The notes under the pieces were generated by a model that was given only the letters and a program-made list of their open reading frames with translations, ran no database searches and was not told the origin of the DNA. Shown piece by piece: positions 19,414 to 55,026 of a DNA stretch of 62,251 nt. The stretch is from a virus, in the IMG/VR virus record IMGVR_UViG_3300047409_000596, positions 1 through 62,251 of that record. One strand, 5' to 3'. Made by a program: the position numbers and the translations under genes. The number at the start of each line of letters is the position of its first letter. Position 1 is the stretch's first letter.

Positions 19414-19502
19414 ATTAGCCACAGAGATCACAGAGGACTCAGAGGGAAAGCGCGGTCTGGCTTTTCTTCCCCTCGGTGTTCTCTGTGTCCTCTGTGGCTA
19501 AT
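19414..19502. repeat. Dispersed palindrome, TTAGCCACAGAG family, copy 1
   Basis: Inverted arms ATTAGCCACAGAG and CTCTGTGGCTAAT enclose a spacer containing AGAGGACTCAGAGG-type sequence. Two more copies lie at 21539-21634 and 24908-25004. The fusion gene next to it ends inside this copy, so its last ~20 residues (LATEDTENTEGK) are repeat-encoded. Confidence 0.85.
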
Positions 19503-20908
19503 CTTTGTGAGCGATGCCGATACTGATGATCTGCTGGCCGGATCACCGCCAGCGAGCCGATCACCTCGACCAGCGTGGCCCCGTCACTCACCAGCCGGTC
19601 CACAACCGTCGTCACGTCCGGGTCGACCGGCGAGCCGTAGTCGTGGAACACGAGCACGCCACCCTTGCGCAGCACACCAAGGCACAGTTCCACGTCGCTG
19701 GACACGCTCGCCTCGTCGTGGGCGCCGTCGATGAAGCAGAGGTCGAAGCGGTCGCCACGTTCGCGGAACAATGGTAGCAAGGCTCCACTCTCGCCCTGAC
19801 AGACCTTGACCTTGGGACGCACGCCGTACTGATTCAGGTTGTGTTGAAAAATTGCCAGTGTGTTCCGCTTCTCCGCCCCCTCGATGCCGCGGCCGTCGAA
19901 CGTGTCGAAGGCCCAAACACTCGCCGCCGTGCTCGCCAGCCAGAGCGTCGATCGACCGCAGTAGGAGCCGATTTCGAGGCAAATCTTGCCGCTGGCCAGC
20001 CTTGCCAGCGCCCGCCCCTCGCCGTCCGTCAGCCAGCCCTCGACGTCGGGGTATTGCTCGGACAGGGTGCAGGGACGTCGTTGCGCAATCGTTGCGCCGT
20101 TGTTGCGCCACTTGCTGGCCGTGTTTTCGTCCTGCTTGAACTCGCCCCACGGCTCGCTGTTGGGGTAAGGGATCTCGCCCATGTGCTTGAGGGCCACGCG
20201 GCGGGTACACATCACCTTGCCGCCGAGCCTGCCGAGTTGACGGCTGAAGTTCCAGTCCTCGGACATGTTCTGAGCCTGGAAAGTGCCTTCAAGATTGGGG
20301 AAGTTGCCGGCCTCTGCCGGGTCCGTCCACCAGCCGTCCTCGGTCCGGAACATGATCCGGTCGTTGATCTCGAAGTGGACCTTGAACCGCCACGGCTGAT
20401 CGAAACGACACACCCAGCAACCCGTATTGGCCAGCAGCAGCCGGTCGTGGTAGCCGAAGTCCGCCGCGCCGAAGACTTCCGGCAGCGCGTGAACCTCGGT
20501 CATCGTCAGCCGGCGGTAGACGCACCAGGGATCATCGGGATCATCAACGGCGGTGGACGAAAGCCCCCGCGAGTCCTTGAGTGGGGGTACGGCTGCCATG
20601 AGGTCCGCGCCCGACTCGTCGAGATCGTGAAGCAGTTGATCGAGCCACCAGTCGGCGGGAATGATGTCCGCATGGAGCATCGCGAAGTATCGGACGTCGA
20701 CGCCGGATCGCTGGGCGTTCAAACACTCGCACCAGTACGAGTTGAACTGGTTGGCCAGGAGCGAAGAACCGTGCGGCTCCGGATAGATGCGGGGCATGTC
20801 CTTGTACGGGCCCGTGGGATCCGTGGCGCGTGCCCAGAACTGCTTCGCCGATCGCGGGTCGACGAAGTTGTAAGCGGGTTGGCAGCAGAAGACGGCGCCT
20901 TCGGTCAT
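19439..20908 (-). CDS. Glycosyltransferase-like / class I methyltransferase fusion
   Basis: This is a 489 aa two-domain protein. Residues 1-260 resemble a glycosyltransferase family 2-type domain without an obvious DxD: FAMLHADIIPADWWLDQ, an aspartate-rich segment, and NDRIMFRTEDGWW. Residues 290-460 are a class I methyltransferase of the Methyltransf_24 type: motif I CLEIGSYCGRSTLWLA, then SVWAFDTFDGRG, CFIDGAHDEASVSSD and GVLVFHDYG. The pair could transfer and methylate a sugar on a virion or host glycan. The C-terminal LATEDTENTEGKKSQ comes from the adjoining palindromic repeat. Confidence 0.85.
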   Translation of the reverse strand: MTEGAVFCCQPAYNFVDPRSAKQFWARATDPTGPYKDMPRIYPEPHGSSLLANQFNSYWCECLNAQRSGVDVRYFAMLHADIIPADWWLDQLLHDLDESGADLMAAVPPLKDSRGLSSTAVDDPDDPWCVYRRLTMTEVHALPEVFGAADFGYHDRLLLANTGCWVCRFDQPWRFKVHFEINDRIMFRTEDGWWTDPAEAGNFPNLEGTFQAQNMSEDWNFSRQLGRLGGKVMCTRRVALKHMGEIPYPNSEPWGEFKQDENTASKWRNNGATIAQRRPCTLSEQYPDVEGWLTDGEGRALARLASGKICLEIGSYCGRSTLWLASTAASVWAFDTFDGRGIEGAEKRNTLAIFQHNLNQYGVRPKVKVCQGESGALLPLFRERGDRFDLCFIDGAHDEASVSSDVELCLGVLRKGGVLVFHDYGSPVDPDVTTVVDRLVSDGATLVEVIGSLAVIRPADHQYRHRSQRLATEDTENTEGKKSQTALSL

Positions 20909-22127: not shown

Positions 22128-23258
22128 TCAGTTCAGCACGACGGCAGCTGCTGCCGTCGCGGCTCCGTCAGCGAGGACGACCGAAGAGTTGAGCCTCAGC
22201 CGTCCATCGGCCCGGAACGTCACGCGAATGACACTCTGATTCTTGGTGAATGCCGTGGGCTCTTCCCGGGTAATCATGATCTCGACTTCCTGGCGGATGC
22301 CGACCAGGAACAGCTTCGGCACGAAGAGCGCGACATCCCCGCGGGTGCCGAGATTCGACAGCTTCTCGGTCACGTAGATCGGCGAGCCGTTCAAATAGTA
22401 CGCGCCCGGCTCGTCAACCTTGCCGGCTCCGGGCGGCTGGCCAATCTGCCAGCTCGCCAGGGCGAACAGTTTGGCCTGCACCGAAGGATGAATCGCCCAG
22501 CAGGCAGTCGGACCATCGAATGCCCCCGACCCGGCCGGAATCAGCTTCGCCGCCATGTTGGCCAGGTCGGCAACCTGCACGTCTCCGCCAGCCGTCCGGC
22601 TTACGGAAAGGGCGCCGGGCGAGTTGATCAGTCCCAACGGCTTGCCTACTCCATCGCCGCGGAAGCAGGCGAGGTCGAAGTACCAGGCCGCTGCCCGGCC
22701 CAGCAACTCCCGGAGATACTTGCCCAGCGGCCCGTCCTCGACGTCCTCCAGCATCTGATTGGAGATCAGGGCGTATCCGGCCAGCGTGTGGCTCGTTAGC
22801 GACGTCGTGAAGAACGTCGGCTCCGTCTCGTTCAGGGCCGCGCCCTGTCCCGGCTGCCACGAAAAGACAGCCCCGCCGTAGAACGGGGATATGCCCGCCG
22901 CGCCGCCAGTAACGCTGGCGTGCGGGACGTTCGTTTCGCGCGTGGTCAGAGGAACCTGCGTTCCCAGTTGCAAGAAGAACGAGTGTTCCGCAGCCTCGGT
23001 CAGCGCCGCCGCTGCCATGTGGACCGGGACGAGGTAGCCGCCGACCGTTCCGCCCGCTCCTTCGGCAAGGGCTGCCTTGGTCTGGTAGCGCTTCCAGAGG
23101 GTTTCCTGGTCGTTCCGCCAGGCCAGACGCATCCAGTCGCCAAATACAGCGTCCTTGTCTGTCGGATCAGGCCGATGACGCCAATGGGGCGGGATCACGC
23201 CGCCGGTAACGCCGTCGCCGTTGCCCACCTTCGTCACGATGTCTGCCAGTCGACTCAT
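22128..23258 (-). CDS. Major capsid protein, HK97 fold (copy 1)
   Basis: This 376 aa protein matches HK97-type capsid proteins: an N-terminal helical/linker region, the KAALAEGAGGTVGGYLVP start of the fold, the ETEPTFFTTSLTSHTLAGYALIS core, then CFRGDGVGKPLGLINS and the C-terminal SVIRVTFRADGRL strand. A second capsid-like gene (23447-24826) shares this layout. It has a shorter delta region than that copy. It forms, or contributes to, the icosahedral shell. Confidence 0.9.
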   Translation of the reverse strand: MSRLADIVTKVGNGDGVTGGVIPPHWRHRPDPTDKDAVFGDWMRLAWRNDQETLWKRYQTKAALAEGAGGTVGGYLVPVHMAAAALTEAAEHSFFLQLGTQVPLTTRETNVPHASVTGGAAGISPFYGGAVFSWQPGQGAALNETEPTFFTTSLTSHTLAGYALISNQMLEDVEDGPLGKYLRELLGRAAAWYFDLACFRGDGVGKPLGLINSPGALSVSRTAGGDVQVADLANMAAKLIPAGSGAFDGPTACWAIHPSVQAKLFALASWQIGQPPGAGKVDEPGAYYLNGSPIYVTEKLSNLGTRGDVALFVPKLFLVGIRQEVEIMITREEPTAFTKNQSVIRVTFRADGRLRLNSSVVLADGAATAAAAVVLN

Positions 23259-23440
23259 TTGGTCTCACCGACTCGTTTGGCTTTGGAGTCCCTGTTCCGA
23301 AGAACCGTCTCGATGTAAGCGACCAGTTCCTTGTGGGTGGCGAAAGTCACCACATACTCGTAGTCACCGAGCCGCTCGTGAAAACTGTACGGCGGCAGTG
23401 ATTCACACATCCACAGTCTGTCCTTCGGCTTTTCTTCCAT
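23255..23440 (-). CDS. Small ORF between the two capsid genes
   Basis: A 61 aa mixed-charge protein (MEEKPKDRLWMCESLPPYSF) with a helix HKELVAYIETVLRNRD. It sits in the 190 bp between the two capsid genes, overlapping the downstream start by 4 bases. It resembles the plan of the 108 aa tail-region ORF at 3433-3759. Function unknown. Confidence 0.65.
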   Translation of the reverse strand: MEEKPKDRLWMCESLPPYSFHERLGDYEYVVTFATHKELVAYIETVLRNRDSKAKRVGETK

Positions 23441-23446
23441 TTCAAC

Positions 23447-24826
23447 TCACTGCGTAAGAATCACGAAGGGACTCTGCGTAAACGTCCCGTCACTGAGCGT
23501 CACGGGGTTGTTGAGCCAGCTTCGTCCGTCCATGCGGGCGATGAGGCGCCACATCATTTGATTCGTGGTGAACCGAGGGATCTGGCTGGCCTCGATTTGC
23601 AGTTCCATCCGGTCGCCGATGACGTAGAAGGGGAAGCAGAAGCAGCCGATGCAACCCGTGGTTCCCAGGGCAGGCAGCTTGTCGGTGATGAACAGGGGTC
23701 GGCCGAGCAGCTGGGCGGTGAACTTGTTTTGTACCGGGCCGGACTCGGACGGGGGCGCGGGGTTAAGCCAGACCAGCCGGCCGGCGCCGGAGCCCGCCGA
23801 GTTGTCCGTCATCTGAAGCAGTTGCGGCAGAACGCTCGGATGAGCCAGCCAGATCACGTCCTGCCAGTTGAGGTAGTAGACCTTGCTGAGCATCGTGGCG
23901 ATGTCCGCGAAGCGCACACTCGATGCCGCCGCCCGCGTGACCTGAAGCGTGGCCGGCGAATTGAGCACGCCCAGCGGCATGCTGTTGCCGGCGCCGCGGC
24001 CTTGCAAGAAGGCGTAGTCGCTGAACCAGGCCAGCGCCTGCTTGAACAGCTGCGTCAGAAGGGCGTCGAGGGCCACCCCGTTGTCGGCCAGCAGCTGATT
24101 CGACGCCACGCACAGCATGACGAGGTCCCAGGCGGTCAGCTCCATCTGCCGGAACGTCGGTTCGGATTCGCCGATCGTCGACGCTTCAGGCTGCCACTGG
24201 GCGAAGATGCCGCCGAGCTGGGGTGGCGTGCCCGCAGCCTGCGCCGTGGTCACGTCCAGGGTGGGGATCGTCAGAGTCCGCGTCGTCATCGGCATGACGG
24301 TGGCGTACTGGCGAACGATCGCCTCTTCCACCGCGATACGAAGCAGGTTCTGCGAGAACGCGGGCGGGACGATGTAGCCGCCCGTCACGCCGGAGCCCTC
24401 GGCAAGGGCCGCCTTCGTGACGTGGCCCCAGGCGTTCTTGCGCCCCCCTTCGGGGACGTGCATGGCCGGCGACCAGCCGTCCTTTTCCAGTTTGGCGAAG
24501 TCGGGACGCCCCAGGTTCGGATTGGCCCCCTTGGCGACCTCGCACAGCGCCTCGCCCATGCCGACGCCCTTGAACAGGGGGCGCCGACCAGGAAAGAGCG
24601 GATCGTAACCGCCCGGCAAACTGAACTTGCGGTAGCCGGCGCCGTCGTTGCCGGCCACCGCATGGCCGGTCATCAGCGCCATCACCTGCTCGGGCGAGAG
24701 CATGGTGTTCGAGGCGACGCCGGCCTTGTTGGCCGGCGTCTTGAGGGCAGAGATGGCCTTGTCCATCGCGCCCTGACGTTCGATGATCCGATTGACGGCT
24801 TCCGCCAGTTCGGCGATTTGCGACAT
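23447..24826 (-). CDS. Major capsid protein, HK97 fold (copy 2, larger)
   Basis: This 459 aa protein starts MSQIAELAEAVNRIIERQG, chosen for its AGAAGAG ribosome site; the frame to 24904 extends into intergenic repeat. Residues 1-135 are a long helical delta/scaffold-like region. The HK97 core follows (TKAALAEGSGVTGGYIVPPA, ESEPTFRQMELTAWDLVMLC, FLQGRGAGNSMPLGVLNS, MMWRLIARMDGRSWL). It differs from copy 1 mainly by about 75 extra N-terminal residues. The pair could build a mixed shell with distinct hexamer and pentamer proteins, or one may be minor. Confidence 0.88.
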   Translation of the reverse strand: MSQIAELAEAVNRIIERQGAMDKAISALKTPANKAGVASNTMLSPEQVMALMTGHAVAGNDGAGYRKFSLPGGYDPLFPGRRPLFKGVGMGEALCEVAKGANPNLGRPDFAKLEKDGWSPAMHVPEGGRKNAWGHVTKAALAEGSGVTGGYIVPPAFSQNLLRIAVEEAIVRQYATVMPMTTRTLTIPTLDVTTAQAAGTPPQLGGIFAQWQPEASTIGESEPTFRQMELTAWDLVMLCVASNQLLADNGVALDALLTQLFKQALAWFSDYAFLQGRGAGNSMPLGVLNSPATLQVTRAAASSVRFADIATMLSKVYYLNWQDVIWLAHPSVLPQLLQMTDNSAGSGAGRLVWLNPAPPSESGPVQNKFTAQLLGRPLFITDKLPALGTTGCIGCFCFPFYVIGDRMELQIEASQIPRFTTNQMMWRLIARMDGRSWLNNPVTLSDGTFTQSPFVILTQ

Positions 24827-24907
24827 GGCAACTCTCTTCTCTGATCGGGTGCGGGTTTCCGAGGCCCGCGCCCTGCCCCCTGCTCTGTTCCAGCCCGCCC
24901 GCAAGAG

Positions 24908-25019: not shown

Positions 25020-28000
25020 TCAGATCCGCGTTCCCGTCAACTTGAAGAACTCTCCGGCCGTCCGGTCGAACGCCCCGTTAAGCTTCGCCAGGGCGTCAGA
25101 GAGGAGTTTTTCCTCGCGCTCCTTCTCCTTGTCGTCCTCGTCCGGTTTCTCGCCGTCTCCATCCTTGTCCGGCTTGTCACCGTCGCCGTCCTGATCCTGA
25201 CTCTCGCCCTCTTCCTTCGGCCAGCCGAAGTCGTGCTCCCTGTAGTCCGCGCTGGCCTTGCGCCAGACACCGACCGTCTGCTTGATCGCCTTGACAATGG
25301 GCGGATGTTCCTGCATCGGCCCGTGTTCGTCGATCGCTGCCTTGATCGCCTTCGTCATCGTGACCCCGGGCGGACAGCCCTTGTCCTGCTGCGCATCATC
25401 CTTGCCGCTTTGCGGCTTGTCTGTCAAACTGCCGCCCGTGGCCGCCGCTGCTTCGCTGAGGTCTTTCAGGCGGGCCAGGGTCTTTTCGTCGTCACCCACC
25501 TTGCCGAACGCCGTCAGTTGGCGCTGTGCAAGCGTCTCGTGCCTGTCATGCGACTTGATGATGTTCGTGATCTCTTTTCGGGTCGCGCGCTCCACCGCAC
25601 TCTTGACTTTGGCGGGGAGCAAATCGATGAGCGTCGTCACAAACTTCAAGAGTCCGTTCTCTGAAATCGCAGACTTGTCGGCACACCGCGCACACGTTCC
25701 ATTCTTGCCGGCCACGTTCTTCACCTCCCCATTGCTCGCCGCGGGCGGTGCCTCTTCGTTTGGCTTTTCGGATTTGGGATTTGAGGTTTGCGTGCAGTAG
25801 ACCACCTCGCAGCCGTCGTCGAGGGCCTCCCGCCGCGCCGTCTCGGGCTGACAATCGGCCGGCTCGAACTGGATGAATGCCCAGGCGTCGCCGGCGTCCT
25901 CCATGTCCGAGGCGTCGAGGCCAGTCTGCTGGACGTAGGAGGCCGCCTCTTCGGGCGTGGCGTAAGTCGCCTTGGGGCAGAGCACGGCCTGGATGGCTTC
26001 GCCGTTGGCGGGGGCGGGCTGTTGCTCCTGCTGCTGCTGGCCGGGTTGCTGCTGGGCAGCAGGGGGTGATTGCTCGCCTTGCTTTTCGCGTCGCTTCCGG
26101 GCCCGTTCTTCGCGTCGCCGTGCCAGCCCTGCCTTCAATTCCACGGCGCCCATACGCTTCTCCTCTTCTTGTTCCGGAGCTTCGGCGAACGCGGTATCGT
26201 GGGCTTCGTCGAATCGTTCCTGCATCAATCGCGGGAATTCGGCTGCCGCTTCCTGGCAGGCTTCCAGGTTGCTGCGGAACTCATTGATGAGCGAATCCTG
26301 GACTTCATCGTCCTCACCCTCTTCGACCGCGTTGGCATAAGCCAGGAAGCTTTCCCGTGCTTGATTGATCGCATAGTTCAGATCCGAGGCCAGGGCTTGT
26401 GTCATCTCGTGAAAGTCTTCGGCGGCCTGTGGAGCCAGGTCTTCCACGTAATCACCCAGCTCCTCTGTGAGCATGGTCGAGAAGTGCTCATAAAAACCAC
26501 TGGCGTGCTCATTCACGGCGGCTTGCATTGCCTCGAACTGGTGATCGACTTTCTCGGCAGACTCCGAAGCATTGCCAGCGTCCAGGCCGTCGAAGGCCGA
26601 TTCCATCGAGGCAAGAAAGCCAGACGCGACCGAAGCCCCCTTGTCCGGCGAATCGGAGCCGAATGTGGCCTCTTCTTCGGACGGAGCGGAAGCACCTGAT
26701 CCGCTCTCGTCCCCCTGCCCGGACTTCGGCAGTCCTACAATGGGCCGCCCCTCGTCATCCTTGCCCTGTTCAACAAGCCGGCCCGTATTGACCAGGCCGT
26801 CAATCACCTGCTCGGCTTGCGCCCGGTCCACATCCTCGGTGTCCGTGGCGTAAAGCACGGCCGCTTCCCAGTTCAGTTCGCCGTCTGGAGCATCCGCCAC
26901 GCCAGCCAGAACAGCGTCCCGCGCTTCGGGGTAGAAGTCGGCCGGACCGCCGCCGACCCGGTATTCTGTCTCGCCGGACTCGTTGCGCGATTCCTCCAGA
27001 TAGCCATCATGAACAAGTTCCTCGACAATCGTGCCGGCGTCGTCGCGGGACAAATCCTCGTCCGCATCCATCGCCGCTAACACCGCCTGTTCGCGCGAAA
27101 TAGAGTCGTACTCCCGTGCTTGGTCAATGACGGAAACGGCGGAATCGGCCAAACTCGTTGACGACCCGCTGCCACCAGTAGACGGTTTCTCCTTGCCGCT
27201 CCCGCCCTCGTCCCCCTGCCCCGACGGCTTGCAGTGGCCCGCCTCGTCGCGCGGGCATTCACCGAAGTAGCTCTCGCCGCCCTTGCTGATCACGCCCTGT
27301 CGCTTCAGCAGCCGCCACGTCCGACCCTTGGCATAGCTGGCCAATTGATCCGGCAGCGCCCGCCGGCGCAGACCGCTGCCCGCGGACGTCGAGGCAATGA
27401 GCCGTCGTTGCTCCTTCACCTTCTCCAGCGCCTCGACCACGGCCGTAGGGAAGTCCTTGCCCTCTTCCTCGTGGAGCACGCGCGCGAAGTGGCATAGCTC
27501 GTAAACGTGTGCCCCCGAGTAGCCGGCCGTGCCGCTTACGGCCGCGGCGAGGTCACTGCCGGCCAACTCCGGGAGCCACTTCCCTATCATCGCCCTGCGA
27601 ATGGCGTCGTCGGGCAGACCGAAATTGAGGACGTCGTGGAAGCGGCCGGGGCGGTCGATGAGGGCCTCGGGCAGGCGCTCCGGGAAGTTGGTGGTCAGGA
27701 TCGTCCACACGCCCTTGTAGCGGCCGATACCGTCCATCTCTGTCTTGAGCAGGTCGACCGAGTACGAGTCGAGCCAGTGGTCGACGTCCTCGAAGAACAG
27801 CACCGTGGGAGACAGTTCCCGCGCCAGCTCAAAGGCGTAGGAGAAGCCGCCGAACGCCCCGGAGCGGTAAAAGTCCGCTGTGGAAATCCAGACGAACGTG
27901 GCATCCACCTCGTTGCGCAGCACACGACCGCTAAGCGTTTTTCCGGTTCCCGGCGGACCGAGAAAAATGGTCCCGCGGTTGGCGAACTTCTCCTGACGGT

Positions 28001-29357
28001 CGTTCAGTTGCTTCAGCGTCAGCGACAGCTGCCGGGTGATCTTCTCGGGCAGGAAGATGTCCTGCCACGTCTCGCCCGTCTTCGGCAGGAACTCGCCGGA
28101 CAGGGCGAACGCTTCGCCCTTGAGGTAGTTGTGCCGCTCCTTCGTCGCCGTCCAGGTCTTGTCCAGCAAATCAAGACCCCGCTGCCGTTCATCGGCGCGG
28201 GTGTAGAGCGTCAGCCCCAGGCCGTACCAGGACTTCGACAGTTCGGCCACGGCGCGGAAGGGGCCTTCGAGAAAGACCAGGCCGTCGACCAGGAAGTCCC
28301 GCGTCTTCTCGCTGTTGAGTCGGATCACCTCGTAACGGGGCGGCGACTCACTGCCGCTGCCGTTGATGTTGCGGACGTCCGTCTTCTTGAAGGGCGCGGT
28401 TTCTTCTTCCCAGGCCGACAGGAAGCCGCCCAGCTTTGCGGCGGGAACATGGGTGGCCGATTCGTAGACCTCCTTGATCTGCACGCCGAGATGCCGGGCC
28501 ACGAAGTCATAAACCACGCTGGACGGCCGCAAGTCCTGATTGCTGATATCGAAAGCGGGAGAGTCGTCCTCCTGGAACTTCACCGTGGCACCATCCTTCG
28601 CACTATCGCCCGTCTGCCACAGCCTTCTACGCAGCCGGTACGGCTCCATGCCCTTGGCCAGCGGCTCCGCAATTTGCCGGCCTGCCAGGCGGTTCTTGCC
28701 CAGGACCATCGAGACGGTTTCTCGGTTGCAGGGCACGAAACACACAGCCCATTCGACCACTTCCCATTCCGTGAAGTCAAAGCCGGGGAAGTCGAAGGAC
28801 ACCTCATCGCGGCTCATACCGCCCTGTGGCTCCGCAAAGTCGAGCCGACGTGCCAGGTGAGGGATGAATCCCAGACTCGCGCCCTTCAGCACCTTGAGCG
28901 TGACCAACTCAAACGCTTGCTCACTCAGTTCCGTCGACAAGTGGAAATGGGCCGTCGAGGTGATGCGGTCCGCGGCAATATCCCACGAGAGAGGGCCCTC
29001 TCCGGGTCCGGCACTGGCAATAGGCATCTCGACTGCTTGCGTCAGATGGTTGTACGAGATGACGTTGTTGGCCCGGTAGCTGTCCAAGTATTTGCGGCAG
29101 CCGGCGGGCCGGACGACGTCGCCGCTGCGGTCCTGGGAGACGACGCTGACCGTAAACGTCGCTGTTGCCTTGCTCTCGCTGACCGCATCGACGTCGAGTC
29201 CTTCCTCGCGGTTAGGTAAGAGGACCAGGCCATCCGCCTCGCGCTGGCGGGCGAAGCGGGACGCACGGGACAGGGCGGGGTGGGCGAGGTCGCCCGAACG
29301 CAGGACGGCGTCCAGGCGCTTGCGGCGAAGTGCCAGAATGTCGGCGATGGCAGACAT
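25020..29357 (-). CDS. Prohead protease fused to AAA+ ATPase and helical cargo domains
   Basis: This is an unusually long 1445 aa gene at the protease position of the head module. Residues 65-240 match HK97-type (S78) prohead protease: His104 in SYNHLTQ and Ser161 in KGASLGF. Residues ~260-660 are an AAA+ ATPase with Walker A GPPGTGKT (467-474), Walker B VLFFEDVDHW (~518), a sensor-1-like TTNFPERLPEALI and GYSGAHVYEL, close to FtsH/BCS1-type proteins. A Gly-rich linker (HCKPSGQGDEGGSG, ~700) leads to two winged-helix-like units (~735-865). A second linker (KSGQGDESGSG) leads to long helical regions (~885-1040), a Gln-rich tract, a Cys motif CARCADK and an acidic Asp/Lys end. Usual proteases of this family are about 150-250 aa. 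The ATPase could drive maturation or be an internal protein ejected with DNA; this is inferred. Confidence 0.82.
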   Translation of the reverse strand: MSAIADILALRRKRLDAVLRSGDLAHPALSRASRFARQREADGLVLLPNREEGLDVDAVSESKATATFTVSVVSQDRSGDVVRPAGCRKYLDSYRANNVISYNHLTQAVEMPIASAGPGEGPLSWDIAADRITSTAHFHLSTELSEQAFELVTLKVLKGASLGFIPHLARRLDFAEPQGGMSRDEVSFDFPGFDFTEWEVVEWAVCFVPCNRETVSMVLGKNRLAGRQIAEPLAKGMEPYRLRRRLWQTGDSAKDGATVKFQEDDSPAFDISNQDLRPSSVVYDFVARHLGVQIKEVYESATHVPAAKLGGFLSAWEEETAPFKKTDVRNINGSGSESPPRYEVIRLNSEKTRDFLVDGLVFLEGPFRAVAELSKSWYGLGLTLYTRADERQRGLDLLDKTWTATKERHNYLKGEAFALSGEFLPKTGETWQDIFLPEKITRQLSLTLKQLNDRQEKFANRGTIFLGPPGTGKTLSGRVLRNEVDATFVWISTADFYRSGAFGGFSYAFELARELSPTVLFFEDVDHWLDSYSVDLLKTEMDGIGRYKGVWTILTTNFPERLPEALIDRPGRFHDVLNFGLPDDAIRRAMIGKWLPELAGSDLAAAVSGTAGYSGAHVYELCHFARVLHEEEGKDFPTAVVEALEKVKEQRRLIASTSAGSGLRRRALPDQLASYAKGRTWRLLKRQGVISKGGESYFGECPRDEAGHCKPSGQGDEGGSGKEKPSTGGSGSSTSLADSAVSVIDQAREYDSISREQAVLAAMDADEDLSRDDAGTIVEELVHDGYLEESRNESGETEYRVGGGPADFYPEARDAVLAGVADAPDGELNWEAAVLYATDTEDVDRAQAEQVIDGLVNTGRLVEQGKDDEGRPIVGLPKSGQGDESGSGASAPSEEEATFGSDSPDKGASVASGFLASMESAFDGLDAGNASESAEKVDHQFEAMQAAVNEHASGFYEHFSTMLTEELGDYVEDLAPQAAEDFHEMTQALASDLNYAINQARESFLAYANAVEEGEDDEVQDSLINEFRSNLEACQEAAAEFPRLMQERFDEAHDTAFAEAPEQEEEKRMGAVELKAGLARRREERARKRREKQGEQSPPAAQQQPGQQQQEQQPAPANGEAIQAVLCPKATYATPEEAASYVQQTGLDASDMEDAGDAWAFIQFEPADCQPETARREALDDGCEVVYCTQTSNPKSEKPNEEAPPAASNGEVKNVAGKNGTCARCADKSAISENGLLKFVTTLIDLLPAKVKSAVERATRKEITNIIKSHDRHETLAQRQLTAFGKVGDDEKTLARLKDLSEAAAATGGSLTDKPQSGKDDAQQDKGCPPGVTMTKAIKAAIDEHGPMQEHPPIVKAIKQTVGVWRKASADYREHDFGWPKEEGESQDQDGDGDKPDKDGDGEKPDEDDKEKEREEKLLSDALAKLNGAFDRTAGEFFKLTGTRI
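25760..25790. repeat. Degraded AAATCCGAAATCC-family repeat inside a coding region
   Basis: The segment with CTTTTCGGATTTGGGATTTG is related to the palindrome at 16271-16327. It is read in frame in the protease-AAA+ gene as a low-complexity insertion (SNPKSEKPNEE, ~residue 1190), so the element has been absorbed into the protein. Confidence 0.5.
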
Positions 29358-29404: not shown

Positions 29405-32400
29405 TCAGTCCTCCGAACCGTTACTGGCCTCGCGCTCCTGCCAGGCCTCGTCCAGCAGTGCCTCTTCCTCCGGAGTCAGGTCGATCTCTTCGCGCTGCTC
29501 TTCCTCGGCCGGACTGTTCATGGCGACCCGACTCTTCTTCCAGTGCTTCTCAGACTTTGCCGCGGAGCCGCGCTTCGCCAGGTACGCTTCCAGTACCTGC
29601 CGTGAACGATGCCCTTCGCGCAGGTCGAAACGCGCGTCCAACAGATCAACGCCCTTCTCCTTCCAGAAGTCGCGGCCCTCCTGTGTCTCCATGATGTCCA
29701 GAACGCTTTTTGCTTTCGGGAACTTCTCGCGGACCTCTCGCATTAGCCCGGCCCCGTTTTCGACTTCCAGGGAATCAAGCGTCTGATCGTAGCCGAGCCG
29801 GGGCCACGTATAGTAGCCGTTGAAGGCGTTGGGATCGTCGTTCTCCGCGCGCGAGGCGTGGCAGCGGATAAAGGCGAAGCCGTTCTCGGCACACTGTTCA
29901 ACCTGACGTGCAAATATTTGAGTGCCCAGTCCGGTGCCGCTGGCGTTGATCTTGATGTACTCGTTTTCGCACACCAGCTCGCCGGCGTCGGTGCGCTTCA
30001 AAACCCGCTGCGCCGTGTAGCCGTTGCCCCTGAACGTGACGCGCAGCGATTCAGGATCAGCGGCTACCACGTTCACGGTTGCATCATCGGGCGCGCCGAC
30101 CAGCGAAGCGAAAGGAACGTCGTCAAGGCGGACGTCCTTGCCGAACACTTCCTTTGCTGCCCTTTCAACCGATTCGCGACGGCCAATCTCCACCTTCGCC
30201 TTGCTCGGTCCCAGCTTGCCCGGCTTCTTTCCGGCGGCCGGCTTGTCCGCAACCGTTGTGCTCCCACCGCCCCCGCCTCCTGACGTGAACTGTCCGCCCC
30301 CCTCGCCCGCGGGCTTGTGCTCGTGGCCGGAAGCATCGGCGGTCTTGCGGCGCGGACGCCGCACGGACTTCTTGCCCCCGGGTCGCTCGAAGCCGGGTGC
30401 GTCGGGCTCGTCGGGGTACTCCGGCTCGTCGGGCTGTTCGGGCTCATCAGGGTAGTCGGGCTCGTCTGGTTCAGCCGGGAAGTCGTAGCGTTCGCCGTCG
30501 TCCTTTTCCGGTTCGGTATCGTCCTGCTCTTCATTCTCGATTCGCTTGTCGAGGCGTTCAATCAGGTCGTCGCTGAACGCCTCTGCCTTTTCCTGGAAAG
30601 ACCCCCAGACCGTCTCACACTTTTCCAAAGCCGTATTCACCTTTTCTTCCACGGCATAGGTTCGCTCTTCCTCCTCCTGATTGCGATCGTACGCCGCATC
30701 GTACCTGGCCTGCCATACCTCCCTTTCCCGGTCGTAGCGAGCCTCGTCTTCGGGGTTGTCATCCTCAAACCCTTCGGGCTCTTCAGCCAGCAGTTGCTGT
30801 TCAGCCTTATCCGCTTTTTCCCACTTCTCCAGGGCCGCGTTGTGCTTTTCAACGGCGGCCAGCCAGCGGACGTTTACTTTTGCGATCGCCTCCGGGGCCC
30901 TGGCCGTGATGCTGTCCAGCTTTACCAGGTCCTCGTCCGTTGCTCCGATGGCGCGAAGTCTATCACCGACCAGGCCAGTAGAACCGAACACAGAGGTAAA
31001 GGCGTTTGGCTCCGACTCGGCATAGGCTTTCGCCTCGGCAAGATAGCGCTCCCGCTCTTCGGTGTTCGACTGCGGATTACTTGTGTCGAAGGGTGCCTTG
31101 GCATCCTGCGCAGTTTGTTCATCCTTGTGCCACGATCTCAATCTCTCGTCCTTGATAAGACCAACCCGCCTGGCGCGGTCCTCATCCCGCTCGTTCCAGG
31201 CGGCAACGTCCGCCTTGAAACGCGCATCAACGACCGCATAGGCTTCTTGCCAGGCGTCGTAATCGTCTGCATAACGAGCCCGCAGCCGCTCCGTGTCCTC
31301 TTCCCAGCGCACGTACTCGCGGTCGTACTCCGCTTTCTCCTTGTCGTACGCAGCCTGGATTTCATCAGTCTCCTTCTCCCAGGCCGCGTGTTCCTCGTCG
31401 TAAGCCTGCCAGTCGGCCGCGCTGTCGTCAGTCTCCTCTTCCTCTTCTTCTTCCTCTTCTTCGGGCTCCGGCGTGTCCTGTTCTTCCTCGTCGTCCTCTT
31501 GCCCACCGCCGCCGCCATCCGACGTGAACTGTCCACCCCCGGGGCCGGCCGGCTTGTGCTCGTGGCCGGAAGCATCAGCGGTCTTCAGCAGGACGGAATC
31601 GATCAGCGAGGCCGCCAGCCGGCCGTTGCCCGACCCCGCGCCGGCTGTGCCGGCTGTAGCCCCGTTAGCGGCGACACGCCCGCCAGGGACACCGTTTGAC
31701 CCGGGCAATGCTACGCGTCCGTTGCTTCCCGGCAACGCTCCGGCAGGTTGCGGGGGAGGCGTGTCGCCCGGAAACACGGCCGGCTGAAGACTGCTCGGGA
31801 TGAGCGGTCGATCACCCCAATCCTCGAACGGCGTCAGACCGCGGCGGCTGCGGATCTCGTTGGGCGTCACGGCGCCGGCCCGAAAGTCCGTGTTGATGTC
31901 CTCGTTGACCTGCTTGGGGTCGTCAGGCGTCGGATCCTCGTGCCAGATCCGAAGGGGCGGGTCGTACAGCACGCCAACGCGCCGAGAGAGCATCGAGCCC
32001 AGCGACTTCAGCCGCGGCGAGATCACAAAACGGCAGAAGAACCGCAGGGGCGCATACCAGCTCAGGTCCGTACCGATCGGCTGCGTACCCGTCAGCTCCT
32101 TGGGCACCCGCAACATGGACAGGACAAACGCCTGCATCTGTTCGGCACTGTCGAAGTACCCCATCTCTTCCGGACTGAAGCTGATCTTCGACACCTTCCC
32201 GCCGTTGCGGGTCACGATCGGCAGGCCATGCTTGTCCACGCCCTCGAAGCGCGCCCGCAGCTTGGCGTAGATACGGTCCATCTCGGCATCGTCCGCAACC
32301 CCTTCGTCCTCGGACAGTTCGATGTGCAGCCCCGGTTGCATTCCGCGGTTGAAGTGACTCCAGCGCGAGGTGTTGATCGCCTCGCTGACGTCGATGATCT

Positions 32401-33097
32401 CGGCGCCAGCCGTCAAGGGACTGTAGCCGTCGACCTTGTGCAGCGGATGCTTCTCGCGGAAATGAATCATCTCCTCGACAGGGATCATATACTCGCCGGT
32501 GCCGCCGGTGATCCCGTAGGGCGCCAGCCAAAAGCCGTCTACCAGCCGATCTTTCCCCGGGACAGCGCGGACCCACTGAGACGGAAGGACCCACATCTCG
32601 CACGGCAGTCCCGCCCCGTTGAACGGAGTCCACAGGTATCCATTGCCAGTGAGGCAGAGGAAGAGTTCCAGCTCGAAGTAGATGTCTTCCAGCGAGTCGT
32701 AAGGGTTAGGGCATTTCAGCAGCTGCACCAGCGGGTGGTCGTTCTCGGCCGGGTGCAGCTCCTCGTGGGGCCGCGGACGATTCACGGCCTTGACGCGGGC
32801 GCGCAGCGTGTGCGCGTTGACGAGGGCCACGCGGGAAGACGATTGCTCGTGGACGTAGTCGACGTGGGGCTCGTGGCGGGCCATCTCATGGGCGCGGGCC
32901 TGGATTCCAGAGTAGACGAATCCGCGATAATGGCGGGCCTGCTCCGAACGGTCTTGCGACCAGTTGCCCAGCCAGCCGTAGGGACTTGCGGAGGACATGC
33001 CGCCGATGAGCCGTTCGCCGCGCGAGCGCCGGGCGGCGAGGCGGGAAGCGGACCGTTTGCGAAGTGCCTCACGGAGGCGAAGGTCGACGATGCCCAT
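29405..33097 (-). CDS. Portal protein fused to coiled coil and C-terminal GNAT-like domain
   Basis: The product is about 1230 aa from MGIVDLRLREALRKRSA, nearly three times a normal portal. Residues 1-470 are an HK97/SPP1-type portal: PLVQLLKCPNPYDSLEDIY, FLCLTGNGYLW, SWYAPLRFFCRFVISPRL and NEIRSRRGLTPFEDWGD. Residue 505 begins a linker, KTADASGHEHKPAG plus GGGQFTS and a Gly run. An acidic/charged coiled coil (~540-890) and PDEPEYPDEP-type repeats follow. At ~918 the linker repeats almost exactly. The last ~270 residues include a GNAT-like pattern: GTGLGTQIFARQVEQ (acetyl-CoA loop) and NGYYTWPRLGYD. The tail domain is probably a virion-carried effector; the portal part is certain. Confidence 0.85.
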   Translation of the reverse strand: MGIVDLRLREALRKRSASRLAARRSRGERLIGGMSSASPYGWLGNWSQDRSEQARHYRGFVYSGIQARAHEMARHEPHVDYVHEQSSSRVALVNAHTLRARVKAVNRPRPHEELHPAENDHPLVQLLKCPNPYDSLEDIYFELELFLCLTGNGYLWTPFNGAGLPCEMWVLPSQWVRAVPGKDRLVDGFWLAPYGITGGTGEYMIPVEEMIHFREKHPLHKVDGYSPLTAGAEIIDVSEAINTSRWSHFNRGMQPGLHIELSEDEGVADDAEMDRIYAKLRARFEGVDKHGLPIVTRNGGKVSKISFSPEEMGYFDSAEQMQAFVLSMLRVPKELTGTQPIGTDLSWYAPLRFFCRFVISPRLKSLGSMLSRRVGVLYDPPLRIWHEDPTPDDPKQVNEDINTDFRAGAVTPNEIRSRRGLTPFEDWGDRPLIPSSLQPAVFPGDTPPPQPAGALPGSNGRVALPGSNGVPGGRVAANGATAGTAGAGSGNGRLAASLIDSVLLKTADASGHEHKPAGPGGGQFTSDGGGGGQEDDEEEQDTPEPEEEEEEEEEETDDSAADWQAYDEEHAAWEKETDEIQAAYDKEKAEYDREYVRWEEDTERLRARYADDYDAWQEAYAVVDARFKADVAAWNERDEDRARRVGLIKDERLRSWHKDEQTAQDAKAPFDTSNPQSNTEERERYLAEAKAYAESEPNAFTSVFGSTGLVGDRLRAIGATDEDLVKLDSITARAPEAIAKVNVRWLAAVEKHNAALEKWEKADKAEQQLLAEEPEGFEDDNPEDEARYDREREVWQARYDAAYDRNQEEEERTYAVEEKVNTALEKCETVWGSFQEKAEAFSDDLIERLDKRIENEEQDDTEPEKDDGERYDFPAEPDEPDYPDEPEQPDEPEYPDEPDAPGFERPGGKKSVRRPRRKTADASGHEHKPAGEGGGQFTSGGGGGGSTTVADKPAAGKKPGKLGPSKAKVEIGRRESVERAAKEVFGKDVRLDDVPFASLVGAPDDATVNVVAADPESLRVTFRGNGYTAQRVLKRTDAGELVCENEYIKINASGTGLGTQIFARQVEQCAENGFAFIRCHASRAENDDPNAFNGYYTWPRLGYDQTLDSLEVENGAGLMREVREKFPKAKSVLDIMETQEGRDFWKEKGVDLLDARFDLREGHRSRQVLEAYLAKRGSAAKSEKHWKKSRVAMNSPAEEEQREEIDLTPEEEALLDEAWQEREASNGSED

Positions 33098-33172
33098 CCC
33101 GGCATTGTGGCCGGAATGGCGGGGGACGGGCAAACGAGGGATCAGAGGACGGGTTGGCTGACGATGTTCATC

Positions 33173-33488: not shown

Positions 33489-34811
33489 TCAAACCCCGAT
33501 CCATGCCCGCTTCCGGTTTTTCTTCAGCACACTCACGACGTAGCGCATCGCGTCCGCGCAATGAAACGAGTGCGGGTCTTCCAGTTTGTCCGTAGGCTCG
33601 CCTCGTTCGTCCAGTTCATAGCTGTACGTCTCCAGTTCATTCCGCAGCTCGGTCAGATCGTCGAACACCAGGATCTGATTGAGCCGAAACGCCGCGTACA
33701 CGCGGTCAATGCCCGGCTCCACCCGGTCCAGGTCCGGCTCTTTCACCGGCAAGCCCGCGGCTTTGAAGGCGTCCCGCCAGCCCTGTTCGATGCGGGGGGC
33801 TCCCCCCACGGCGGTCGGAATGCCGCGTTCACCCTTGAGCAACTCCTTGACGTGTTCAGCCGAACTGCGGTTGCCGGCGTGGTACTCGCGATAGGCGTAC
33901 ACGCGGCCCGTGGGCAGCTTGGGACCGCCGAGGCCGTCATGGGGTTCGGCCATCTCCTCGGCGAAAAACACGGCGGCCGTGTTGACCGGACCGAAGTCGA
34001 GGCCCACCCAACGGGGCCAGTCAGAGGGCAGGGGGAAGCGAGGGACGACGTGCAGGGCGGAATCGAAGCAGTCGTAGACCAGACCGGGCGGGCGGGTGAA
34101 GAGGCCCTCGTAGGCCATGCTGAACTTCCAAGGGGGCATTGTCTTCTTGGCACGGTCCCACTCCGCGCGGGGAAAGGAGGGGTTGTCAATGGACCGAAAG
34201 TTGATGATGTCGATGTAAGGGTGGTTCTTTTTGGCCTGCTCCCAGAGATCGTAGAGCTTCTGCTTGATCCAGCCCAGATCATAGGGCCGAGTGGTCAACA
34301 GACACCGACCCTCGTTCAGAGAAAGACGGCCCTGAATGGCATCCCAGGAAGCGGCGCGGAACCCCTTCTGACCGGCCTCATCCAGCCAGGCGGCTTTGAG
34401 CGTGGCCGATTCGAGCGAGTCGGGATCGCCAGCATGACCGAGGAACACCTGGACTGGATCCAAAGGGACGTAGCCGAAGAGCCGTTTGCATCCTTTGGGA
34501 CTGAACGTGAAACAGTTCTTGGGGTGGCCGGAGAACTCGCCCAGCTTGAAAACCCGCTTGAAAAGGCGAAGGAACTCGGGCAGCACCTTCTTCTGCATCA
34601 GGGGGTAAGTCGGCGAGGCGATGAGGTAATCGCCGGGGCCACAGGCGCGGATCTCGTTCAGCATCCAGGGGGGGCCGATAACGGTCTTGCCGGATTGCCA
34701 GCCGGCCAGGACGAGGACGAACCGCTTCGTACTCTCCAGGGCCCGCCGCTGGCCGCGGTGAATCGCCATCTCGAAGTAGCCGTCAGGGGCCTGTCGCGTC
34801 TGTTCCAGCAT
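33489..34811 (-). CDS. terL: Terminase large subunit
   Basis: This 440 aa protein starts MLEQTRQAPDGYFEM, overlapping the small subunit by 29 bases. It has the packaging ATPase motifs: an adenine-binding region, Walker A AGWQSGKT (36-43), Walker B AAWLDE (Asp144, Glu145) and a coupling segment LLTTRP. The C-terminal RNase H-like nuclease includes Asp272 in WVGLDFG and a late HSFHCADAMRY motif. It cuts concatemeric DNA and drives packaging into proheads. Adjacent terS and portal confirm the call. Confidence 0.95.
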   Translation of the reverse strand: MLEQTRQAPDGYFEMAIHRGQRRALESTKRFVLVLAGWQSGKTVIGPPWMLNEIRACGPGDYLIASPTYPLMQKKVLPEFLRLFKRVFKLGEFSGHPKNCFTFSPKGCKRLFGYVPLDPVQVFLGHAGDPDSLESATLKAAWLDEAGQKGFRAASWDAIQGRLSLNEGRCLLTTRPYDLGWIKQKLYDLWEQAKKNHPYIDIINFRSIDNPSFPRAEWDRAKKTMPPWKFSMAYEGLFTRPPGLVYDCFDSALHVVPRFPLPSDWPRWVGLDFGPVNTAAVFFAEEMAEPHDGLGGPKLPTGRVYAYREYHAGNRSSAEHVKELLKGERGIPTAVGGAPRIEQGWRDAFKAAGLPVKEPDLDRVEPGIDRVYAAFRLNQILVFDDLTELRNELETYSYELDERGEPTDKLEDPHSFHCADAMRYVVSVLKKNRKRAWIGV

Positions 34812-35106
34812 CGTCCGCCGAGGGAAGGGAGTTGACGAAGCGAATGCCCAGGGGGATCTCGCCGCCGTCCGGGCCACTCACGCTGGCTGCACTGAGCCGC
34901 GGGTGGATGTACGGGGCGGCGTCCTTGGCGATGGCGGCCGCGTCGTCGAACCGCTTCTTGTCGTAATGGTCGCGCATCACGGCGAGCATCACTTCGAGAG
35001 GGGTGATGCCCTGTTCGGCGGCGGCACGGGCGAGCTCCCGTTCCTTGCTCGTCTTGCTGCCCGCCTTGCGGCCGGCGCCGTCACGTTTGCCGCCGTGCCC
35101 GTTCAT
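34783..35106 (-). CDS. terS: Terminase small subunit
   Basis: A 107 aa protein with a Lys/Gly-rich N-terminus (MNGHGGKRDGAGRKAGSKT) and helices ELARAAAEQGITPLEVMLAV. The GGKRDGAGRK start is a hallmark of many phage small terminases, which recognise the packaging site. It is the first late gene. A TACAAT hexamer 7 bases upstream of its ATG could be the -10 of a late promoter with an almost leaderless transcript. Confidence 0.85.
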   Translation of the reverse strand: MNGHGGKRDGAGRKAGSKTSKERELARAAAEQGITPLEVMLAVMRDHYDKKRFDDAAAIAKDAAPYIHPRLSAASVSGPDGGEIPLGIRFVNSLPSADDAGTDATGP

Positions 35107-53940: not shown

Positions 53941-55026
53941 ATGGGACAGGAGCGCATCGAGGTCAAGGTGATCCCGTTCGCGGATCGGCCGGCGTTACAA
54001 CTGCAATGGTACTGTCCACAAACCGGGTTGCGGAAAACCCGCTCGGCGAAGACGGCGGACCCGGACGAGGCGGAGCGAGCACGGGCGGACCTGGAGTACG
54101 AGTTATCGCACGGCCTTCACGCCTCCAGCGTCCGCACGGGCTGGGCACGATTCCGCGAGCTGTTCGAGGACGAGTACCTGCCGGGCGTCCGGCCGCGCAC
54201 GGCGAAGCAGTTCGGTGTTGTGCTCGACCACTTCGAGCGGATCTGCCGGCCGGTAACGATGGAGGGAGTTTCGGCGCGGACGCTTTCCCAGTTCCTGGCT
54301 GGCCTGCGACAGGTTCCCGGCCGCGGGCCCGCCGGTCGGAACGGAATGCAGCCCTCGACGCTGGCCGTTCGCCTGGAGTACCTCCGCTCGGCGCTGTCGT
54401 GGGCGCAGCGGCAGGGAATGCTGACCGCGGTCCCGTCCTTCCCGGAAGTGAAACTGCCGAAGCGGCGACCGCAACCCGTGGCCACCGATCTCTTCGAGAG
54501 GCTCTTTCTCGCAGCCCAGACGCCCGAGTTGCGGGCCTACCTGGCGTGCGGCTGGCTCGACGGCCTGCGCCTCGGCGAGGCCCAGCAGCTGCGCTGGGAG
54601 TCGTCCGACGAGGCCCCGTGGCTCGACCTAGCCCGGGACCGGATCTGGCTGCCCGCCGCGGCGGTCAAGGGTGTCGAGGACCAGTGGCTGCCCCTGGCGC
54701 CCGAACTGCGACAGCTATTGGCCGGCCTACCGAGGAAAGGCCCCCATGTCTTTCCCTGGCACGACTACAGTCAGGGCGGCATGTCGAACGTGATCCGCCG
54801 GCTGGCCGCCCGTGCCGACGTGCCGCTGACGATGCGGAGCCTGCGCCGCGGCTTCGGCTGCCGCTACGCCGGGATCGTGCCGGCTCAGACGCTGCAACGT
54901 CTCATGCGTCACGCCGACATCCGCACGACTCTCGGCTACTACGTTTCGCTCGACCAGGCTGCCGAGGACGCTGTTCTCCGCAACACTTCTGCAACACCCG
55001 GTCTGCCGAAGCCTAGCAATCCCTGA
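53941..55026 (+). CDS. int: Tyrosine recombinase (phage integrase)
   Basis: The 361 aa protein has an N-terminal arm-binding-like domain, a SAM-like core (GWARFRELFEDEYLPGVRPR) and a C-terminal catalytic domain: Arg210 (LDGLRLGEAQ), Lys243 (AVKGVEDQW), MRSLRRGFG (Arg at the usual His place; Arg302), His324 (LMRHADIRTT) and Tyr333 (LGYYVS). It integrates the phage at attB. The His-to-Arg change in the HxxR motif is unusual but tolerated. The attP site should be near 55027-55260; none was identified. Confidence 0.93.
   Translation: MGQERIEVKVIPFADRPALQLQWYCPQTGLRKTRSAKTADPDEAERARADLEYELSHGLHASSVRTGWARFRELFEDEYLPGVRPRTAKQFGVVLDHFERICRPVTMEGVSARTLSQFLAGLRQVPGRGPAGRNGMQPSTLAVRLEYLRSALSWAQRQGMLTAVPSFPEVKLPKRRPQPVATDLFERLFLAAQTPELRAYLACGWLDGLRLGEAQQLRWESSDEAPWLDLARDRIWLPAAAVKGVEDQWLPLAPELRQLLAGLPRKGPHVFPWHDYSQGGMSNVIRRLAARADVPLTMRSLRRGFGCRYAGIVPAQTLQRLMRHADIRTTLGYYVSLDQAAEDAVLRNTSATPGLPKPSNP

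Follow-up and report, generated by a model that had tools for sequence, protein, structure and literature searches.

An uncultured phage known from a 62,251-base IMG/VR virus record, which was analysed over its full length and is referred to here as the window, encodes between its portal and capsid genes a protein of 1445 residues in which an S78-type prohead protease and an AAA+ ATPase share a single chain. The explanation that we favour, and to which we would give about an even chance of being correct, is that this protein serves head morphogenesis in a temperate tailed phage, with the ATPase tethered to the maturation protease. The case is built on observations, namely the architecture of the protein, the integrity of its active sites, the recurrence of the fusion across some 20 distinct viral lineages, the order of the genes, the fold class and the lineages in which the two parts are split. 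If the explanation is true, a dedicated chaperone driven by ATP, so far undescribed, would serve head assembly or maturation in some phages. To our knowledge, HK97-type head maturation needs the protease and no ATPase other than the DNA-packaging motor, and no description of prohead-protease fusions with AAA ATPases or of phage Bcs1-like proteins was found in titles and abstracts of the open-access literature, a source of partial coverage.

Gene context and protease domain

The fusion gene sits between the portal gene and two tandem capsid genes of the HK97 type, and the presence of an integrase in the window indicates that the phage is temperate. The relevant features are as follows.

25020..29357, minus strand: fusion ORF of 1445 aa, comprising S78 protease, AAA+ ATPase of Bcs1 type, linkers and repeated unit, helical region and C-terminal helix; a single frame by codon-position GC
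29405..33133, minus strand: portal gene, upstream of the fusion ORF; 1242 aa, with the portal domain in the N-terminal third and a long C-terminal extension
33489..34877, minus strand: terminase large subunit
23447..24904, minus strand: major capsid protein 1, downstream of the fusion ORF, HK97 fold family
22128..23258, minus strand: second tandem major capsid protein, HK97-type
53941-55026: integrase
28644..29195, minus strand: S78 prohead protease domain (residues 55-238), with H104, S161 and probably E202 as catalytic residues

The initial annotation had read positions 25020-29357 as one 1445-residue frame with protease residues His104 and Ser161 and a Walker A motif GPPGTGKT at residues 467-474; all of these are found where it placed them, the codon-position GC keeps the same phase along the whole ORF, and the strand, which had been left unstated, is minus.

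Residues 55-238 of the window protein, searched alone, match no Pfam family at E<=1. L002, a phage protein of 704 aa, shares 33% identity over 228 aa at its N-terminus with the S78 domain (E 2e-31) and itself matches PHROG_80 'head maturation protease' (E 1.6e-14); an alignment scan yields 25 viral loci with such proteins. The only residues invariant across 22 S78 domains are D76, R77, H104, S161, G163, F164, P166 and E202, which fits a His-Ser-Glu catalytic set with E202 probably as its third member. In an AlphaFold2 model of the protease part (pLDDT 74.6), the T4 gp21 capsid protease is the only credible PDB match by Foldseek (prob 0.96, E 0.03). The earlier assignment to the S78-type prohead proteases is thus upheld by homology through L002, by the invariant H104, S161 and E202 and by the fold match to T4 gp21, and membership in Peptidase S78 is further matched by the position of the gene from portal to capsid; among the proteins bearing the ATPase module, PF04586 is matched by 10/20 and PHROG_80 by 13/20. 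In its location by the portal and major capsid genes and in its conserved His/Ser/Glu set, the window protein resembles S78 prohead proteases such as HK97 gp4 (PF04586), and T4 gp21 is its best relative in fold, but it differs from both in that its 1445-aa chain holds an AAA+ ATPase and other domains between the protease and the C-terminal helix.

Several other features of the window may be recorded here. Past its portal domain, the portal ORF carries two near-identical linkers, TADASGHEHKPAG(P/E)GGGQFTS(D)GGGGG, at portal residues ~517-545 and ~930-958, to which the protease ORF linker EAGHCKPSGQGDEGGSG is related; its C-terminal extension comprises an acidic coiled region and a C-terminal domain without an identified family, and a GNAT domain suspected by eye at the portal C-terminus found no support. 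Directly after the capsid genes, a 489-aa ORF (19439-20908, minus strand) has a C-terminal methyltransferase domain (PF13578). Positions 1-60 of the record contain G and C runs resembling an assembly artefact.

The ATPase module and its class

The protease is followed by a conserved module of 400 residues, whose parts are listed below.

27381..28583, minus strand: ATPase module (residues 259-659), Bcs1-like N-domain and AAA core; 42% identity, E 3e-107 to L039; 31 loci; AlphaFold2 pLDDT 83.8
28068..28583, minus strand: alpha/beta N-domain of the module (residues 259-430), covered by the full-length Foldseek match to YjoB and Bcs1
27936..27959, minus strand: Walker A GPPGTGKT (residues 467-474)
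27780..27803, minus strand: Walker B VLFFEDVD (residues 519-526), in E-D order; E523, D524 and D526 invariant in 22 sequences
27639..27689, minus strand: sensor 1 N557 and arginines R569 and R572 in NFPERLPEALIDRPGRF (residues 557-573), invariant in 22 sequences

Pfam AAA (PF00004) matches residues 464-580 with an E-value of 1.8e-15. No variation is seen at the Walker A, Walker B, sensor 1 and arginine positions in 22 sequences, of which the others are 35-42% identical to that of the window, so the ATPase is under selection; the E-D order of its Walker B is also that of Bcs1. The AlphaFold2 model of residues 255-694, made from the 22-sequence alignment (pLDDT 83.8, pTM 0.79), consists of an alpha/beta N-domain and then an AAA domain, and its top PDB matches by Foldseek are Bacillus subtilis YjoB and Bcs1 (7w42, 9gsn, 6ukp) over almost the whole length, with TM-scores of about 0.4-0.5 and high rmsd, such that the support is a domain-level rather than a whole-chain superposition and the orientation of the domains differs or is uncertain. 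Matches in the viral library include BCS1-type proteins of giant viruses.

Searches by sequence alone favour Cdc48 D2, since mostly the AAA core is visible to them, and also match FtsH. The pore-loop-1 region is variable in the module family alignment, with no conserved aromatic motif, and the model of residues 255-694 contains no N-terminal transmembrane helix of the kind present in Bcs1 proper, the module being preceded by the protease domain. On the strength of intact ATPase motifs and a Bcs1-like N-domain ahead of the AAA domain, we place the ATPase, which has its own N-domain, with the Bcs1/YjoB class rather than with the threading unfoldases; the earlier description of a protease fused to an AAA+ ATPase, which the Pfam match, the complete motifs and the S78 homology bear out, is thereby sharpened.

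The closest structural relative, YjoB (PDB 7w42), a putative chaperone, shares with the module its own N-domain and a single AAA domain over nearly all 440 residues, but it is a free cellular protein of ~16% sequence identity, whereas the window module is fused to a phage head protease or, in relatives, encoded beside one. The mitochondrial AAA translocase Bcs1 has the same N-domain and AAA layout, with full-length Foldseek matches, and differs by a membrane helix that the modelled part of the window protein lacks. Stand-alone AAA ATPases of rhizobial plasmids (L037, L038) are likewise composed of N-domain and AAA, at 27% identity over 373 aa, but they are separate genes outside phage head clusters and are joined to the phage clade by a very long branch. 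AAA proteins of the Bcs1/YjoB type handle folded or aggregation-prone clients. For Bcs1, translocation of a fully folded substrate, a departure from the threading model, has been described (PMC11143374). A member of this class would form a homo-oligomeric ring with chaperone or translocase activity.

Fused, split and AAA-less relatives

A scan with an AAA alignment led to L039, in which residues 214-615 have 42% identity (E 3e-107) to residues 259-659 of the window protein. In L039 the module likewise comes after an S78 protease within a single ORF, with portal and capsid genes on either side; the protease parts of the two proteins are not alignable by BLASTP. With a two-sequence alignment of the module, 31 viral loci are recovered at 38-45% identity to the module, a count that leaves out the weak 29% match of L094 and that corresponds to about 21 distinct sequences when near-identical records are counted once. 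When the full protein or segments of a single sequence served as query, only two protease relatives were returned; the ATPase family was reached only by alignments. The S78 domain and the module lie in one ORF in 26 loci, 23 by the S78 motif and three by PHROG (L085 and its copies L086 and L090); L071 has a protease motif just upstream of the module in a different frame, and L092 and L093 are truncated at the ends of their contigs. A capsid gene comes after the fusion in nearly all fused loci on contigs that are long enough, and a portal gene lies ahead of it in many, the E-values of these neighbours being inflated by the iterated profile from which they derive. Conservation of the fusion across phages was what the initial annotation had looked to for support, and the recurrence of the S78-AAA join in 26 viral loci supplies it.

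Two capsid genes after the S78-AAA fusion, as in the window (22128-24904), are also seen in L067, L069, L073, L077 and L079. In the record that holds L039, the portal of this S78-AAA phage (L064, 1952-6286) bears insertions of intein type (LAGLIDADG, Intein_splicing, DUF559 endonuclease) and has a MuF domain fused to it. Among the 50,697 phage records of INPHARED, tblastn with the window protein or the L039 fusion found no S78-AAA fusion, and the three phage AAA proteins whose surroundings were inspected are separate genes with no adjoining annotated portal or capsid gene. The N-domain found no match in 398 Pseudomonadota genomes, in a search that had no positive control.

In two loci the ATPase has a gene of its own, with the portal and protease genes as its immediate neighbours.

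L075 and L076, gene order, all separate: portal (phrog_113), ATPase, head maturation protease (phrog_80/976), short ORF, capsid protein (phrog_371)

The ATPase ORF of L075 shares a few bases with that of the protease, and in both loci the major capsid protein belongs to a different family. This order implies that the ATPase is tied to the head cluster independently of the fusion, thereby weakening any reading of it as pure cargo on the protease, and the separate adjacent genes may be taken as Rosetta-stone evidence for a functional link between protease and ATPase. An ATPase encoded as a separate non-virion gene in homologues had been named at the outset as grounds for abandoning the idea; the gene is indeed separate in these two, but it lies inside the head cluster, between portal and protease.

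Beyond the module, the remainder of the window protein comprises the following parts.

26718..27131, minus strand: a unit of ~45 aa present twice (within residues 743-880); a repeat by shuffle test, of no confident family
26103..26645, minus strand: helix-rich region (residues 905-1085), no homologue found
25023..25148, minus strand: C-terminal helix (residues 1404-1445) with FFKLTGTRI at its end; homologous to the LFEVTGKR C-terminus of the AAA-less S78 relatives

The two Gly-rich linkers described earlier are real, lying as Gly/Ser-rich segments at residues ~703-742 and ~876-905, whereas the claim of a winged-helix-like pair holds in part: the two units do repeat each other (0/2000 shuffles as good), but their winged-helix fold, with weak Pfam matches and no PDB sequence match, is unconfirmed. 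The long helical tail is likewise present as a helix-rich region, and its end can now be specified as the conserved C-terminal helix of the protease family. No homologue was found for residues 660-1400. The last residues, DALAKLNGAFDRTAGEFFKLTGTRI, align with the very end of the relatives' C-terminus, 8 of 200,000 shuffles scoring as high and every other called gene in the window scoring no higher than zero; we propose this helix as a capsid-targeting or scaffold-like end.

The AAA-less relatives of the protease, 12 distinct and complete proteins of 600-924 aa, all have in common the N-terminal protease part and, at the C-terminus, a helix whose last residues are LKSNQDALNRRLFEVTGKR or nearly so, and their middle is a slot holding different, apparently unrelated sets of cassettes, one of which matches DUF5824. 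Since both ends of the window protein match these relatives, the ATPase and more occupy the slot between protease and C-terminal helix, and a natural insertion slot in a head-cluster protease is thus exposed. Within L005-L029, the slot cassettes occur in varying combinations: KYKKETNMS..ELKAWS, SVYRRGAGAFSSSHRP (DUF5824) and AWDGP..LPHHDAKTL.

The S78 tree separates the window, together with the AAA-less proteins, from all fused ones (100/100, with long branches present), and in the module tree the window nests with L085 and L063 (97/95 and 94/95); a basal position of the window AAA is not rejected by the AU test (p 0.225). These trees suggest that the module was transferred into a different protease lineage, and an ancestral fusion followed by losses is a possible alternative history. 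AAA genes in the genomes of AAA-less relatives were considered as 'split' copies and discarded on inspection, two being of another type, which we take to be Ycf46-like, and one being a MoxR-like ATPase. In L034 and L035, both AAA-less relatives, a separate AAA gene of Ycf46-like appearance away from the head cluster is followed by a conserved ORF of 313-325 aa.

A proposed role in head morphogenesis and competing explanations

We propose that the ATPase forms a ring and spends ATP on chaperoning or remodelling folded head proteins (the portal, the capsid protein or the scaffold) as procapsids assemble. With the protease fused at one end and the C-terminal helix at the other, the ATPase would lie inside or at the nascent procapsid; once activated, the protease might sever the linkers and so free or degrade the ATPase, either ahead of DNA packaging or while it proceeds, such that an ATP-dependent step of assembly or maturation would be added to the usual ATP-free protease step. 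Ring formation, the client, the timing, entry into the procapsid and cutting of the linkers are what we infer in this scheme. The wider proposition, that an unrecognised class of phages uses a dedicated Bcs1-type ATPase coupled to the prohead protease and that procapsid maturation is under ATP control inside or at the procapsid, is put forward tentatively, with rather less than an even chance of being right. A point against the favoured explanation is that heads are presumably made by the AAA-less relatives, whose protease ends are the same, so that S78 maturation in general would not require the ATPase. With a conserved protease-chaperone fusion and lineages in which the two are neighbouring genes, the use of ATP in shell assembly or maturation becomes directly testable, and L075 and L076 supply a smaller, unfused ATPase suited to biochemistry.

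The initial annotation had left it between an ATPase that powers or controls maturation and extra domains that are virion proteins ejected with the DNA, a choice that lies beyond sequence alone and in which the split gene order leans toward morphogenesis. The latter alternative, the main rival, which we regard as unlikely though worth keeping, holds that the ATPase, the repeated unit and the helical domains enter the procapsid on the protease and the C-terminal helix, are released by the protease, remain in the virion and are ejected with the DNA to act on a new host. Reasons to retain it are that the slot differs among the relatives, with different cassettes in proteins of 600-924 aa, that the portal here also bears large extra domains on the same kind of linker, and that effectors fused to head proteins are known, multi-domain polyvalent or MuF-fused effectors riding on MuF and portal proteins being an established theme (PMC5512222); phage SPN3US, moreover, has documented ejection proteins together with cleavage of head proteins by the prohead protease (PMC7411985). 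The window protein is similarly multi-domain and rides on a head protein, but a single conserved ATPase type recurs in ~20 lineages where diverse effectors would be expected, it is also encoded unfused beside the protease without a visible packaging tag, and Bcs1/YjoB-type AAA proteins are chaperones or translocators rather than known effectors.

Considerably less probable is an ATP-dependent protease in the manner of FtsH or Lon, whose AAA ring would unfold scaffold or delta domains and thread them into the attached S78 protease. An AAA domain and a protease in one chain, along with the sequence matches to Cdc48 D2 and FtsH, agree with such a layout, but the whole-module structural matches are YjoB and Bcs1 and not FtsH, the aromatic pore-loop-1 motif that is conserved in FtsH/Lon-type proteases is variable here, and the protease is of the S78 type, not M41 or S16. 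Furthermore, HK97 S78 proteases cleave folded precursors without ATP. We deem it slightly more improbable still that a captured chaperone-like ATPase is carried along as an oligomerisation or spacer domain with no ATP-dependent role: mosaic late genes are common and AAA-less relatives hold other cassettes in the same slot, but the ATP-binding, hydrolysis and arginine positions are all invariant across 22 sequences that are only 35-42% identical to that of the window. Finally, the merging of separate genes by an assembly or frameshift error, toward which the extreme ORF length and the absence of a second contig over the exact locus (L004 spans only the portal start) might point, is highly improbable given the codon-position GC in one phase and a C-terminus that matches S78 relatives in the same frame, and as a reading of the S78-AAA join it is refuted at the sequence level by the same join in 26 loci.
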